NCBI GenBank assembly: GCA_903921675.1
Contig: CAIXQW010000200.1
Location: 1 to 36,467 of the forward strand
Direction of reading: 5' to 3'
Origin: an uncultured bacterium
GTDB taxonomy: Bacteria > Bacteroidota > Bacteroidia > Chitinophagales > Chitinophagaceae
Length of the DNA stretch: 36,467 bases
Below the pieces are notes generated by a model. It did not search any database, was not told where the DNA came from, and worked only from the letters and a program-made list of their open reading frames with translations. Of this stretch, positions 20,025-35,667 are shown piece by piece (position 1 is the first letter of the stretch; each line of letters starts with the position of its first letter). A program made the position numbers and the translations under genes.

Positions 20025-22265
20025 TTATTCCACAACTAATTTCACCATTGCTTCATTTACTTTTACATAGTAAATTCCTTTGGTTAAATGGCTAATATCT
20101 ATGCTATTATTTGCATTAATAATTTTTGAATTGTAAATACATTGCCCAAATACATTTATTATTTTGCAATGGTAGGCTTGATTGAAATTAAAATTATCAA
20201 TATCTATTTTAATAAAATTTGTTGCAGGATTTGGAGCAATTTTTATTTGCGTAGTTGTATAATTAGCAATAGCTAAATTTTTTACTTGCCTACATGCCGA
20301 TGTATCTGCACAAGTACCATTGCTTACAATAGCTGCATAATTGCCATTAGCTGTAGCAGTATAACTTTGACCTGTGGCACCACTTATAATTTGATTGGTG
20401 GCACAATTGTACCACTGATAGCTTAGCCCATTGCCATTGGCTGTAAGTATATTACCATTTTGTAAGATGCTAGTATCTATAGGTGTAATAGTTAATTGCA
20501 ATGTTACTACGCTATCGCATCCTGCTGCATTGATTAAGGTGTGGGTGTATGTTCCTGAGGTAGTATAGTTGGTATTGTTGTACCAATAATTATTGCAAGC
20601 GTTTACTGTAATACTACTAGTTGTAGCATCGTTTCTTTTAATAATAATTTTTACAAAACTATCACAGCAGTTGGCTGTGGCAAACTGCATAACAAATGTA
20701 GTATCAAAAGTATAGTAATGGTTATACAACAATAATGCACTATCACAAATAGAATATTTTGCATCTATTACAGGTATACCACAATCTGTAAAGCCTGCAA
20801 CAAATGCATTGGTAAGTTGGCTAGAATCTGGAACATATACGCATGTACTAGGGTCAAAATCTGTGGGACCACTTTTGTAACCTGTTAAATAAATTTTGTT
20901 GTCAGAGTCTAATGAAATAGAATTAGGATAATATTGATAATTCAAAGTTCCTTCTAATGTCATCATGTATCGAAAATTACTATTTGGCGAGTAGGATGCT
21001 ACAAATGAATGAGTTACCCCATTACCACTCAAAGGGTAAAAATTATAATTGTAGATAACATTAGATGGGTCAAAGTCTATTGCACCGCCATTTGTATAAC
21101 CTAATAGAACCACATTGTTGCCTGTATCTATTTTAATATCTCTTACAAAGCAAGAAGTAATATAGTTTTTTAAATTAAATGCCCACTGATAATTACCATT
21201 ACTATCTAACTTTAACAAATATGCATCATCTAATGCTGGGTACAATAATTGTAAGCCAATGTTAGGGTCAAAGTCGGCAATGGTATCAAAATGCCCACCA
21301 ATATACACATTACTTTGATGGTCAATAGCACAGTCGAATACTGTACTAAAATTACTTTGGGCAAATTGTTTTGCCCAAAGTAAATTTCCATTGCTATTAT
21401 ATTTTGCTGCAAAACTAGTGCGTGTATTAGCACCACTTGTTAAATAAAAGGTACTTGCACCTGGGTCAAAATCGGTACTATCAAATAGATACCCACTAAT
21501 TACTAGATTTTGGTTTTTATCTGTTTCTGATGAGGAAATTCCTAAAATATTACTAGTAACTAATTGTTTCACCCATTGAAAGTTGCCATTACTATCAAGT
21601 TTTAAAATAAAGCAATCCTTATCAAAAGTAGATACCAATTGAGTTATACCAATTCCAGGGTCAAAGTCTACAGTATCTTTAAAGTTAGAGCATAAAAATA
21701 TATTGTTATTTGAATCTAATGACATTATAGAATTTCCACCTATATTAGAAAAATTATTTTGAATTTTTTTAGCCCAAATAAAGCTACCATTACTATCCAA
21801 TTTTAAAATAAAATGGCTCCACTTTATATTATCAGATACTAAATTGTAAATACCAAAATTAGGGTCAAAATCTACTGTGCCTTTAAAAGTGCCATGCAAA
21901 TAAATATTTTCATTTTTATCTAATTCAAAATTTACAGACAAATATGCTCCATTTGTTTGAATTGGTTTTGCCCACAAAAAGTTATGGTTACTGTCATGTT
22001 TTAAAATATAGGTGGTTGAAGAGTTACTACTTAAATTAAAGACAGATGAACTATGATCAAAATCTGTAGTGCCGTAAAATGACCCAATAGCATATACATT
22101 GAAATTTTTGTTTATTATTTTTTTTCCTGCACAACTTCCATTACTAAAGGTTACATTAGCAAAATCTAAAGTTTGAGAAAAACTATTGAAATTAAATAAT
22201 AGTATAAAAATAAGTAAAAAAGAATTACATTTTGAATTATTGAACACTAATAAGTAATTCATCAT
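20025..22265 (-). CDS. T9SS-sorted FDP-repeat (probable seven-bladed propeller) protein, copy 1
   Basis: A secreted protein of about 746 residues. An open frame extends to 22310, but the signal peptide (FLLIFILLFNFNSFSQ) fits a start at 22265 or 22262, inside the end of the small gene upstream (overlap of 26-29 nt), suggesting translational coupling. After the signal come seven repeats of about 50 residues with the pattern DFDPxxGxxxL, then a ILKLDSNGNFxWxK strand. Seven such blocks suggest a beta-propeller, similar to SBBP-type repeats. Two Cys-rich domains with YWYNNTNYTTSGTYTH and YQWYNCATNQ follow, then a type A sorting domain starting IKIAPNPATNF and ending YYVKVNEAMVKLVVE. It is a paralogue of the gene at 22775-24985. 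The ligand is unknown. Confidence 0.88.
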   Translation of the reverse strand: MMNYLLVFNNSKCNSFLLIFILLFNFNSFSQTLDFANVTFSNGSCAGKKIINKNFNVYAIGSFYGTTDFDHSSSVFNLSSNSSTTYILKHDSNHNFLWAKPIQTNGAYLSVNFELDKNENIYLHGTFKGTVDFDPNFGIYNLVSDNIKWSHFILKLDSNGSFIWAKKIQNNFSNIGGNSIMSLDSNNNIFLCSNFKDTVDFDPGIGITQLVSTFDKDCFILKLDSNGNFQWVKQLVTSNILGISSSETDKNQNLVISGYLFDSTDFDPGASTFYLTSGANTRTSFAAKYNSNGNLLWAKQFAQSNFSTVFDCAIDHQSNVYIGGHFDTIADFDPNIGLQLLYPALDDAYLLKLDSNGNYQWAFNLKNYITSCFVRDIKIDTGNNVVLLGYTNGGAIDFDPSNVIYNYNFYPLSGNGVTHSFVASYSPNSNFRYMMTLEGTLNYQYYPNSISLDSDNKIYLTGYKSGPTDFDPSTCVYVPDSSQLTNAFVAGFTDCGIPVIDAKYSICDSALLLYNHYYTFDTTFVMQFATANCCDSFVKIIIKRNDATTSSITVNACNNYWYNNTNYTTSGTYTHTLINAAGCDSVVTLQLTITPIDTSILQNGNILTANGNGLSYQWYNCATNQIISGATGQSYTATANGNYAAIVSNGTCADTSACRQVKNLAIANYTTTQIKIAPNPATNFIKIDIDNFNFNQAYHCKIINVFGQCIYNSKIINANNSIDISHLTKGIYYVKVNEAMVKLVVE

Positions 22266-22689
22266 TAGTAGTATTTTGATTAATTTGTGTAAACGTAATT
22301 GTATATCCACCTCCAGAAATAGTTACAGAACCAAAATTACATAAATCAAAATTAGTAGGAGGAATAACACCTTGTAATTCAACTACTCCAGCGTTTTCGT
22401 CCCATGTAGCACCTACTAAACAATAACCTTGCGAAATAGTTGAATTTGCTGGAACAATTACAGCAGGTAAAACTGGGCAAATGGGGGTACAACTCATTCC
22501 TATAGGAACAGTATTTCTATCAGATACTATAAAATTAAGATTGGTAAGATTTCTTACATACACCACTCCAGTTTGTGCAGATGTTTTATAAGAATTTATC
22601 ATCATACCCGATAAGAACACTCCTAAAAAGACTAACCTTTTAGCTAATTTGTTGCTTGTTGTTTGTTGTTTGTTGTTTGTTGTTTTCAT
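22237..22689 (-). CDS. Small exported protein of unknown family, copy 1 (7-nt repeat after start)
   Basis: A 150-residue protein with a long N-region made by tandem AAACAAC repeats, then a basic stretch and hydrophobic signal segment (RLVFLGVFLSGMMINSYKTSAQ, cleavage about residue 39). The mature part (~111 residues) is beta-rich with four or five Cys and a motif shared with its paralogue at 24975-25385: VPANSTISQGY, a W-x(4-5)-G-x-V-E-L segment, (F/Y)DLCN(F/W)G, then GGGYTI-F. There is no sorting domain, so it may stay in the periplasm or be secreted otherwise. Its 3' end overlaps the start of the FDP-repeat gene, so the pair is probably translated together. No known family was recognised. 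Function unknown; it may be a partner or chaperone of the large protein. Confidence 0.8.
   Translation of the reverse strand: MKTTNNKQQTTSNKLAKRLVFLGVFLSGMMINSYKTSAQTGVVYVRNLTNLNFIVSDRNTVPIGMSCTPICPVLPAVIVPANSTISQGYCLVGATWDENAGVVELQGVIPPTNFDLCNFGSVTISGGGYTITFTQINQNTTNDELLISVQ
22651..22685 (-). repeat. Tandem 7-nt repeat (AAACAAC x5) directly after a start codon
   Basis: Five head-to-tail heptamers, four exact and the distal one AAGCAAC, begin at the fourth base of the small gene. With five units the frame is open. With six the frame reaches TAA, and with four it reaches TAG, both within the first few codons past the repeat. This is the pattern of a slippage switch (phase variation by simple repeats). 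Confidence 0.9.
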
Positions 22690-22771
22690 AATTGATAAAT
22701 TTTAGAATATAAAGTTAGAAGCAAATAATTTTAAATGCAATAAAAATGCGGTGAATTTTTGTTAAGGCTAA
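22681..22771 (-). promoter_or_regulatory. Duplicated promoter/leader, copy 1
   Basis: This ~90-bp block upstream of the small gene is nearly identical to 25377-25466. On the minus strand it carries TTG (22738-22740), 20 bp, then TAACTTTA (22710-22717), a near match to the Bacteroidota TTG-N20-TAnnTTTG promoter, about 20 bp before the ATG. Confidence 0.6.
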
Positions 22772-22774
22772 ATA

Positions 22775-24985
22775 TTACTCCACTATCAATTTTACCATTG
22801 CCTCATTTACTTTTACATAATAAATTCCTTTTGCAAAATGGCTTACATCTATGCTATTATTTGCATTTTTGATAATGGAAGCGTAAACACATTCTCCTAA
22901 TACATTAATTATTTTGCAACTATATTGTTGATTTAAATTGAAATTATCAATATCTATTTTAATAAAATTTGTTGCAGGGTTTGGAGCTATTTTTATTTGC
23001 GTAGTTGTATAATTAGCAATAGCTAAATTTTTAACTTGCCTACATGCCGATGTATCTGCACAAGCACCATTGCTTACAATAGCTGCATAATTGCCATTGG
23101 CTGTAGCAGTATAACTTTGGGCTGTAGCACCACTTATAATTTGATTGGTGGTGCAATTATACCACTGATAGCTAAGCCCATTGCCATTAGCAGAAAGTAT
23201 ATTTCCATTTTGTGAAATGCTAGTATCTATTGGTAAAATAGTTAATTGCAATGTTACTAAGCTATCGCATACTGCTGCATTGATTAAGTTGTGGGTGTAT
23301 GTACCTGATGTAGTATAGGTGGTATTGTTGTACCAATAATTATTGCAAGATGTAACAGAATAATTGCAGAACGATTTTGCTTTTTTTGTAAGTGTAAATT
23401 TTACAATACTATCGCAACAGTTGGCAGTAGGAAATTGTAAAATAAAAGTTGAATCATTGTAATAAGTAAAATTATTTAAAATAATGCTGTCGCAAAAATT
23501 TTCATTTTCTGGTTCTACATTTGTGTTGCATATTTTTAATCCAATAATAAATGTATTATCTACATATCCAGAATCTGGAATTACTACGCAACTACTAGGG
23601 TCCATATCTGCATACCCATTTTTATAGCCAGTTACATATATCTCATTGTACTTATCCAAAGCGATGGAATGAGGGTAATTAAGTGCATTTACAGTGCCAC
23701 TTATTGGAAGCATATATTTAAAATTGCCAAGGCTACTGTAACTTACAATAAAACTATGTGTAATACTTCCTCCAACCAAAGGGAAAAAATTATAACTATA
23801 TATTTGATTGCTAGGATCAAAATCTATAACACCACCAGTAGTAACACCCAGCAATACAGCATTGTTACCTGTATCTATTTCAATTTCTCGAAATCTACTT
23901 GATGCAAAAATATTATACAAATTAAATACCCATTGAAAATTTCCTGCACTATCTAATTTTAATAAATAAGCATCAGAGAAACCTGGTGTTACTAAATGAA
24001 TACCTATGCCTGGATCAAAATCTGCTATTGTATCAAAACCTCCAGTAACATATATACTATTTTGCTTGTCTATTTTGCAATTCCAAGATACAGCAAAAGT
24101 ACTTTCCCCAAATTTTTTTGCAAAAATATAATTGCCAAATCTATCAAATTTTATTACTAAACTAGCTCTGTAATTTGGGCTAATGATATAGTTGTTAAAA
24201 CCTGGATTACAATTAACACTATCATCAAACATTGCAGATAAAACAATATTTTGATTGCTATCAATATCAGCACCAGTTATTTTTACATATTTATTGGCAT
24301 CTATTCTATTAACCCAAATAAAATTTCCTGCACTATCTAATTTTAATATAAAGGCATCTTTATCTTTTCTAGAAATTAAATTGTTTACTCCAACTCCAGG
24401 GTCAAAATCTACAGTGTCTTTAAAAGTACCTGTAAAATAAATATTATTGTATTTGTCTACACTTAAGGTAGGAGTATTTACATATTTATTGTTAGGTATT
24501 TGAATAGCCCAAATAAAGTTGCCATTGCTATCTAATTTTACAATAAAATAATCCTTTTGTAAAGTGTCTGCAGTTAAATTATAAACTCCACCTCCTGGAT
24601 CGAAATCTGCTGTACCTCTAAAAGTTCCATACGCAAATACATTATGTTGATAATCTGTTTTTATTTGCATATCACTGCTTGGCGTAAGCGGGTTTAATTG
24701 TAACTGCTTTGCCCAAACAAAGTTGTTAGCATTATCTAGTTTCACAATTGCATTACTATTGCTTGTTGTGCCTAAATTATAAACTCCAGCATTAGGGTCA
24801 AAGTCTACTGTGCCAACAAACCAACTATTGAATAAAGTGTAACTCTCATTTTTTATTATTCTGCCACCTTCATTTATAGAATTAGAGGAAATGATTTTTA
24901 CAAAATCCAAATTCTGCCCTAGTGCAATCATAGGAAAGCAAAGCAAAAAAAAGAATAAAAATCTAATGTTTATTTTAGAGAGCAT
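22775..24985 (-). CDS. T9SS-sorted FDP-repeat (probable seven-bladed propeller) protein, copy 2
   Basis: A secreted protein of about 736 residues. The start at 24985 (MLSKINIRF) gives a compact signal peptide ending MIALGQ. It lies 11 nt inside the end of the small gene at 24975-25385, whereas a longer open frame to 25012 has a poorer N-terminus. Seven FDP-type repeats follow (DFDPNAGVYNL, DFDPGGGVYNL, DFDPGVGVNNL, a degenerate NCNPGF repeat, DFDPGIGIHLV, DFDPSNQIY, DMDPSSC), each paired with a KLDSxGNFxW strand. The Cys-rich domains and type A sorting domain are almost the same as in copy 1. The last ~200 residues are far more alike between copies than the repeats are. Ligand and role are unknown; surface display is expected from the sorting domain. 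Confidence 0.88.
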   Translation of the reverse strand: MLSKINIRFLFFFLLCFPMIALGQNLDFVKIISSNSINEGGRIIKNESYTLFNSWFVGTVDFDPNAGVYNLGTTSNSNAIVKLDNANNFVWAKQLQLNPLTPSSDMQIKTDYQHNVFAYGTFRGTADFDPGGGVYNLTADTLQKDYFIVKLDSNGNFIWAIQIPNNKYVNTPTLSVDKYNNIYFTGTFKDTVDFDPGVGVNNLISRKDKDAFILKLDSAGNFIWVNRIDANKYVKITGADIDSNQNIVLSAMFDDSVNCNPGFNNYIISPNYRASLVIKFDRFGNYIFAKKFGESTFAVSWNCKIDKQNSIYVTGGFDTIADFDPGIGIHLVTPGFSDAYLLKLDSAGNFQWVFNLYNIFASSRFREIEIDTGNNAVLLGVTTGGVIDFDPSNQIYSYNFFPLVGGSITHSFIVSYSSLGNFKYMLPISGTVNALNYPHSIALDKYNEIYVTGYKNGYADMDPSSCVVIPDSGYVDNTFIIGLKICNTNVEPENENFCDSIILNNFTYYNDSTFILQFPTANCCDSIVKFTLTKKAKSFCNYSVTSCNNYWYNNTTYTTSGTYTHNLINAAVCDSLVTLQLTILPIDTSISQNGNILSANGNGLSYQWYNCTTNQIISGATAQSYTATANGNYAAIVSNGACADTSACRQVKNLAIANYTTTQIKIAPNPATNFIKIDIDNFNLNQQYSCKIINVLGECVYASIIKNANNSIDVSHFAKGIYYVKVNEAMVKLIVE

Positions 24986-25385
24986 ATATCCAACCATCAT
25001 TTGCAGAACCAATTGGTGAAAAATCTATTGTGTAACCTCCTCCAGTAATTGGTATTACTCCCCAATTACATAAATCATAATTGGTAGCAGGAATAGCACT
25101 TACAAGTTCTACTCCTCCAGCTATCCAATCCCAATTGCCCCATAATGTAAGATAACCAAAGGTTGCAACAGAATTTGCAGGAATAGTTACTGTAGATGTA
25201 ATATATCCAATTGAAATGCAGTTAGGATCAGTTTGTTTTACTTCTAAGTTTAAAGCTAATGGTGTTCCATTTCTAACAAACAACGTATTTTGTGCAATTG
25301 CTTTATTGCTAAATAAAAAAAATCCCATCATTACAACTCCTAAAAAGACTAACCTTTTAGTTAATTTGTTGTTTGTTGTTTTCAT
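24975..25385 (-). CDS. Small exported protein of unknown family, copy 2
   Basis: A 136-residue paralogue of the product at 22237-22689. It has a signal peptide (RLVFLGVVMMGFFLFSNKAIAQ, cleavage near residue 32) and a ~104-residue beta-rich mature domain sharing VRNGTPLALN, TIPANSVATFGY, a Trp-rich segment, GGVELVSAIPATNYDLCNWG and GGGYTIDF with copy 1. Only two Cys remain (the C of DPNC and the C of DLCNWG), so the disulfide pattern differs. The start codon is followed by two 7-nt repeat units against five in copy 1, a difference of seven codons. Its end overlaps the start of the large gene by 11 nt. No known family recognised; function unknown. Confidence 0.8.
   Translation of the reverse strand: MKTTNNKLTKRLVFLGVVMMGFFLFSNKAIAQNTLFVRNGTPLALNLEVKQTDPNCISIGYITSTVTIPANSVATFGYLTLWGNWDWIAGGVELVSAIPATNYDLCNWGVIPITGGGYTIDFSPIGSANDGWIYAL
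25368..25381 (-). repeat. Tandem 7-nt repeat (AAACAAC x2) directly after a start codon
   Basis: Two exact heptamers begin at the fourth base of the gene, as in the paralogue. Two units keep the frame. Three units would give TAA at codon 12, and one unit would also give an early TAA. Two units alone are less prone to slip than five. Confidence 0.85.
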
Positions 25386-25466
25386 AATTGATAAATTTTA
25401 GAATATAAAGTTAGAAGCAAATAATTTTAAATGTAATAAAATGCGGTGAATTATTGTTAAGGCTAA
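25377..25466 (-). promoter_or_regulatory. Duplicated promoter/leader, copy 2
   Basis: Nearly identical to 22681-22771. The -7-like TAACTTTA (25406-25413) is kept, but at the -33 position the minus strand reads TTA (25434-25436) where copy 1 has TTG, so the two copies may differ in strength. Confidence 0.55.
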
Positions 25467-35595: not shown

Positions 35596-35667
35596 ATCAG
35601 CACATCATCAAATCACCACATCAGCAAATCATCACATCAGCACATCATCTAATCATCACATCATCAA
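35596..35667. repeat. Degenerate 8-nt tandem repeat (ATCAnCAn)
   Basis: Nine consecutive 8-nt units of the form ATCA-n-CA-n (e.g. ATCAGCAC, ATCATCAA, ATCACCAC) fill the gap between the DUF47 and PiT genes and end 6 bp before the PiT start. It may affect the leader of the PiT mRNA. Confidence 0.85.

Follow-up and report, generated by a model that had tools for sequence, protein, structure and literature searches.

A heptanucleotide array stands at the very beginning of a small gene in the window (the whole stretch of 36,467 nucleotides that was analyzed), and it is a real feature of that gene. We lean toward reading it, from the sequence, as a slippage-prone contingency tract that would act as a neuO-like translational switch of the small gene, with the large gene that overlaps it being lowered at the same time; the two genes look like a pair of surface or secreted proteins under random on/off control.

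The minus-strand open reading frame (ORF) at 22689-22237 opens ATGA(AAACAAC)4-AAGCAAC-AAATTAG, so that the array is placed directly 3' of ATGA and spans codons 2-13. Within it the perfect period-7 run is 30 nt long (22656-22685), composed of four perfect units and one degenerate unit. The original prediction described five units between 22685 and 22651, AAACAAC four times and then AAGCAAC, which is what we find, but had them begin at base 4 of the ORF, whereas they begin at base 5, after ATGA. The unit is not a multiple of three and lies inside the 5' coding region, as in neuO, and a frame table shows the small gene to be open when the number of units (n) is 2, 5, 8 or 11. With four units translation runs for 12 codons and then meets TAG, with six it runs for 18 codons and then meets TAA, and all remaining counts likewise reach TAA or TAG a few codons beyond the array; this frame arithmetic had been correctly predicted.

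Several comparisons bear on whether such an array could arise by chance. The longest perfect period-7 run reached 19 nt at most in 60 first-order Markov simulations of the window, as against the 30 nt observed. Because random synonymous recoding of the peptide reaches a 30-nt run in only 80 of 200,000 trials, and because every asparagine of the array is encoded by AAC, in a window where AAT is used four times as often, the periodicity belongs to the DNA itself and does not follow from the amino acid sequence. The 838 kb from which array statistics were taken, a third of the genome, yielded at the thresholds applied no second perfect array with a period of 4, 5, 7 or 8, and two consecutive AAACAAC units are found nowhere in the 2.57 Mb genome besides this array and that of the paralogue described below. 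Two other repeats were noted in the window: a degenerate array of ATCATCAC-like 8-mers with a 24-nt super-period (35596-35666), which ends just before the ATG (35674) of a gene that looks like a putative inorganic-phosphate transporter, and an (AGGATG) hexamer array at 1-28 inside which the contig begins, possibly an assembly break point.

The small protein reads MKTTNNKQQTTSNKLAKRLVFLGVFLSGMMINSYKTSAQ... and has a putative signal peptide, with a charged n-region (KLAKR) right after the array, a hydrophobic stretch (LVFLGVFLSGMMI) and a signal-peptidase-I-like site (TSA/Q). Neither it nor its paralogue has a match in Pfam or NCBIfam, a search for homologues of the small gene among 150 relatives gave weak, unconvincing matches only, and a contig scan of genomes with the small paralogue as query gave zero matches; structure predictions for the two small proteins have mean pLDDT values of 36 and 49. 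The large protein contains SBBP-like repeats and a C-terminal T9SS sorting domain, with matches to PF18962 (45.9 bits, cut-off 27), PF06739 (22.6 bits, cut-off 20.5) and TIGR04183. Both large proteins of the window qualify as T9SS cargo by PF18962 and TIGR04183, and the genome encodes the T9SS translocon SprA (2503 bits). The suggestion that the small protein is itself T9SS cargo is not supported: neither small protein of the window has a C-terminal sorting domain in Pfam or NCBIfam, and this domain is carried by the large protein only. If the large gene starts at GTG 22247, it overlaps the stop of the small gene by 11 nt.

Table 1. Features of the gene pair, its tandem paralogue and their arrays, in window positions.
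Feature	Position	Strand	Basis or remark
Tandem array (AAACAAC)4-AAGCAAC	22651..22685	(-)	Sequence and Tandem Repeats Finder
Small exported-protein gene (putative), 150 aa	22237..22689	(-)	ORF
Large gene	20025..22265	(-)	Candidate starts ATG 22265, ATG 22262 or GTG 22247
Leader block upstream of small gene	22645..22771	(-)	Near-identical counterpart before paralogue, about 25463-25345
Small-gene paralogue, 136 aa, 46% identical, begins ATGA(AAACAAC)2	24975..25385	(-)	ORF
Two-unit AAACAAC array of paralogue, n = 2, open frame	25368..25381	(-)	Sequence
Large-gene paralogue with T9SS sorting domain	22775..24985	(-)	Start ATG 24985, 11-nt overlap with small paralogue's stop

Two tandem copies of the gene pair are present, at 22765-20025 and about 25463-22775, and the two-unit, open-frame array that had been predicted for the paralogue is indeed there. 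The leader and start blocks of the two copies are identical at 96 of 98 aligned bases, except for an array difference of 21 nt, exactly three units. Both counts, five in the window gene and two in the paralogue, are in frame, and no OFF variant of either was seen in the one genome. Across the two copies (20025-25463) the ends, comprising the leader and signal peptide on one side and the T9SS C-terminal region on the other, are ~95-98% identical (~95% toward the 3' end of the large gene) and the middle ~60%; with its homogenised ends and diverged core, the duplicated pair is open to recombination between the copies.

A scan of 84,980 genomes for ATGA followed by three units returned one match, L062, in a metagenome-assembled genome (G1058) of an unrelated Bacteroidia bacterium. 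The scan specified the position of the array only; an exported small gene, a T9SS partner, an overlap and a frame rule were not part of the query, and the locus has all four. Its array is (AAACAAC)5(AATCAAC)2, five perfect and two variant units (n = 7), and it follows the same n = 2 mod 3 rule as the window, so that at both loci two of the three classes of unit number end translation early. The ATG frame of L062 runs for 19 codons to a stop, which is the OFF state, and n = 8 would join the ATG to the frame of a small exported protein with a signal peptide. That frame is open, and has no ATG, GTG or TTG upstream of its charged region. The large gene of L062 overlaps the small one by 10 nt (ATGTCCGTAG) and encodes PKD and PF18962 T9SS sorting domains; an overlap of 10-11 nt between large-gene start and small-gene stop is common to all three loci, the two window pairs and L062. 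The small proteins of window and L062 have no similarity by BLAST, for which reason we do not claim common descent of the two loci, and they may be convergent. Two further candidates, from a search of 399 genomes of the order for ATG plus two units, were set aside as chance matches: in L085 the units fall, out of frame, in a gene resembling that for threonyl-tRNA synthetase, and in L084 they are antisense within an ORF. A wider scan of the class around G1058 gave nothing new.

These arrangements also bear on where translation begins. Were the true start 3' of the array, the number of units would be irrelevant to the protein, and downstream starts do exist in the small gene, a GTG at codon 24 and ATGs at codons 29 and 30. 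All three, however, fall in the hydrophobic core of the signal peptide, and the charged region would be lost; moreover, the start consisting of ATG and array is conserved with the leader in the paralogue, and the sole downstream start in L062 is a TTG past the charged region. We regard a downstream start as very improbable.

A sister species of the L062 organism, represented by genome G1070, encodes a small protein 100% identical to that of L062, and over the 2,097 bp 3' of the array the two alleles differ at two positions (99.9% identity). The array of G1070 reads (AAACAAC)2(AATCAAC)2 AATC up to an assembly gap of 151 N and (AATCAAC)3 beyond it, and the resolved units on both sides of the gap differ from the L062 array. 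The gap proves nothing alone, since the contig has three others. Arrays that differ within near-identical sequence are seen both between G1058 and G1070, the array in the latter being broken by the gap, and between the window paralogues, where the difference is one of unit number. Elsewhere along the contig G1058 and G1070 are ~90% identical, and the near-identical tract is the gene pair alone: over ~3.2 kb, the small and large genes and nothing else, identity is nearly 100% (L094 8506-11700 against G1058:C51 17166-20300). This restriction suggests a recent exchange of a surface module between species, with the caveat that it could alternatively reflect mis-assembly or a chimera of co-occurring relatives.

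How unusual is an array in this position? From what is found in the family, the class and viral contigs, AAACAAC repetition is common and its placement right after a start codon is not. Ten arrays of at least three AAACAAC units occur in seven other genomes of the family, none of them at the start of a coding region and nearly all plainly intergenic; intergenic AAACAAC and related arrays in these genomes have 3 to 13 units, and related 7-nt arrays in another family of the class are intergenic as well. At one locus, L052, an AAACAAC array stands before an ATG. Of the 47 viral arrays of at least four units, most either lead up to an ATG or run in frame within a gene, and their counts are steady; ATGA followed by three units occurs zero times in the viral contigs. 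In L165, L167, L173 and about 20 other viral contigs, a conserved small phage gene (MAKFIKF...) has (AAACAAC)4-5 a few bases ahead of its ATG, an arrangement that resembles a fixed A/C-rich translation leader. In L163, L169, L174 and similar viral contigs a coding region itself includes (AAACAAC)4 in frame (SLNNKQQTTNNKQINT), the count being constant.

Such leaders raise the question of whether the window array is no switch at all, serving instead as an unstructured A/C-rich leader or early-codon stretch that aids ribosome loading, its unit count incidental and kept in frame by purifying selection. The composition fits, in that the array has no G or T except one G and is thus expected to be weakly structured, as do the steady counts (4 or 5) of the many viral leaders directly before an ATG, the in-frame viral arrays and the L052 array that precedes an ATG. 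Neither a leader nor a coding aid would call for a period of seven, though, and the out-of-frame allele of L062 and the different make-up of the sister allele sit poorly with it; we consider this explanation improbable. Neutral drift is a further alternative, under which an expansion-prone unit in Bacteroidota meets a tolerant signal-peptide n-region, in-frame counts are selected, and the L062 allele is simply an inactivated gene. It draws on the intergenic arrays of the seven family genomes, the comparable 7-nt arrays of a second family in the class and the difference of exactly three units between the window paralogues. Yet the L062 pair shows no other damage and recurs unchanged in a second species, which is not expected of a decaying gene; and two unrelated lineages have the array directly after the ATG of a small exported/T9SS pair, a placement seen in none of the ten intergenic family arrays. 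Drift on these terms seems to us unlikely.

On the reading that we favor, a frame switch, the array would decide, as in neuO of Escherichia coli K1, in which frame the small gene is translated. In the ON state (n = 2 mod 3) the ribosome, starting at the ATG, would translate the signal peptide and go on into the mature protein; a unit gained or lost in replication would turn the gene OFF by bringing a stop a few codons after the array. Since the start of the large T9SS gene lies within the last part of the small gene, translation of the large gene should fall when the small one is left untranslated. Of the coupling that had been proposed between the two genes, the anatomy stands, as at three of three loci a start for the large gene is available 10-11 nt ahead of the stop of the small one, and joint switching would follow from it. 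The proposed on/off switch itself gains from L062, with the same array at the same place and an OFF count, and from the sister allele with its different array; these do not extend to unit variation in the window organism or to a rate of switching, and the OFF allele found in nature belongs to the L062 assembly (n = 7) and not to the window gene itself. All genomes involved are draft assemblies, one genome per species, and the window organism is a singleton genus. The perfect run is 30 nt in the window, and the L062 tract has five perfect units plus two variants. The four to five units of the window are short for rapid switching; with only four perfect units and one degenerate unit, the window allele, if it switches, probably does so slowly. 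By its anatomy and its frame rule, by the variability of the arrays and by the OFF allele of a relative, the locus qualifies as a member of the neuO type. We infer slippage as the cause, the presence of both states in one population, a large gene that follows the small one and a role in surface variation. To the wider proposition we would give a little less than an even chance: that this is a recurrent Bacteroidota module, in which a start-codon-fused AAACAAC-type array and a small exported protein coupled to a T9SS protein are switched together and exchanged between species, the array changing fastest.

Bacteroidota are known for switching surface structures through DNA inversion; at surface loci of Bacteroides, invertible promoters and shufflons provide stochastic switching by recombinase-driven inversion. 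The switch proposed here would likewise vary the surface stochastically in this phylum, but by a mechanism that differs from recombinase-driven inversion. Tandem heptamers adjoining start codons have been described as TAACTGA direct repeats in Beggiatoaceae, Cyanobacteria and some Bacteroidetes (PMC4679880); these are of a different unit, mostly intergenic and upstream of the start codon, are proposed to be regulator-binding sites, and have no frame rule. Closer in composition is AACAACC of Haemophilus influenzae, an A/C-rich 7-nt unit like AAACAAC that lies within or upstream of TonB-dependent receptor genes (PMC2651432), near or inside genes for surface proteins for which phase variation is proposed. 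The hmw1A and hmw2A repeats of that species, in contrast, are promoter repeats and act on the promoter (PMC2651432), and the proteins and the phylum are others.

The nearest working analogue is neuO, the polysialate O-acetyltransferase gene of the CUS-3 prophage in E. coli K1, which has a coding repeat of AAGACTC (PMC13001214, PMC3046976) with 3-53 units, 20 being most common, and is OFF in 65.6% of genomes (PMC13001214). Both have a heptanucleotide repeat at the 5' coding end, one residue class mod 3 that is translated while the others stop early, and ON and OFF counts that are both found in genomes. They differ in that neuO encodes an unrelated protein, usually has a far longer repeat and belongs to Gammaproteobacteria, and that it is a single gene, whereas the window has a pair in which the small gene overlaps a T9SS cargo gene. 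Among the open-access papers searched, none describes a T9SS cargo switched by repeat slippage, and the novelty here lies in the phylum, in the T9SS partner and in an overlap through which the two genes could be coupled. If the reading is true, a single short tract would control two exported proteins, and the cheap stochastic switch of Haemophilus, Neisseria and E. coli K1 is also in use among uncultured Bacteroidota.
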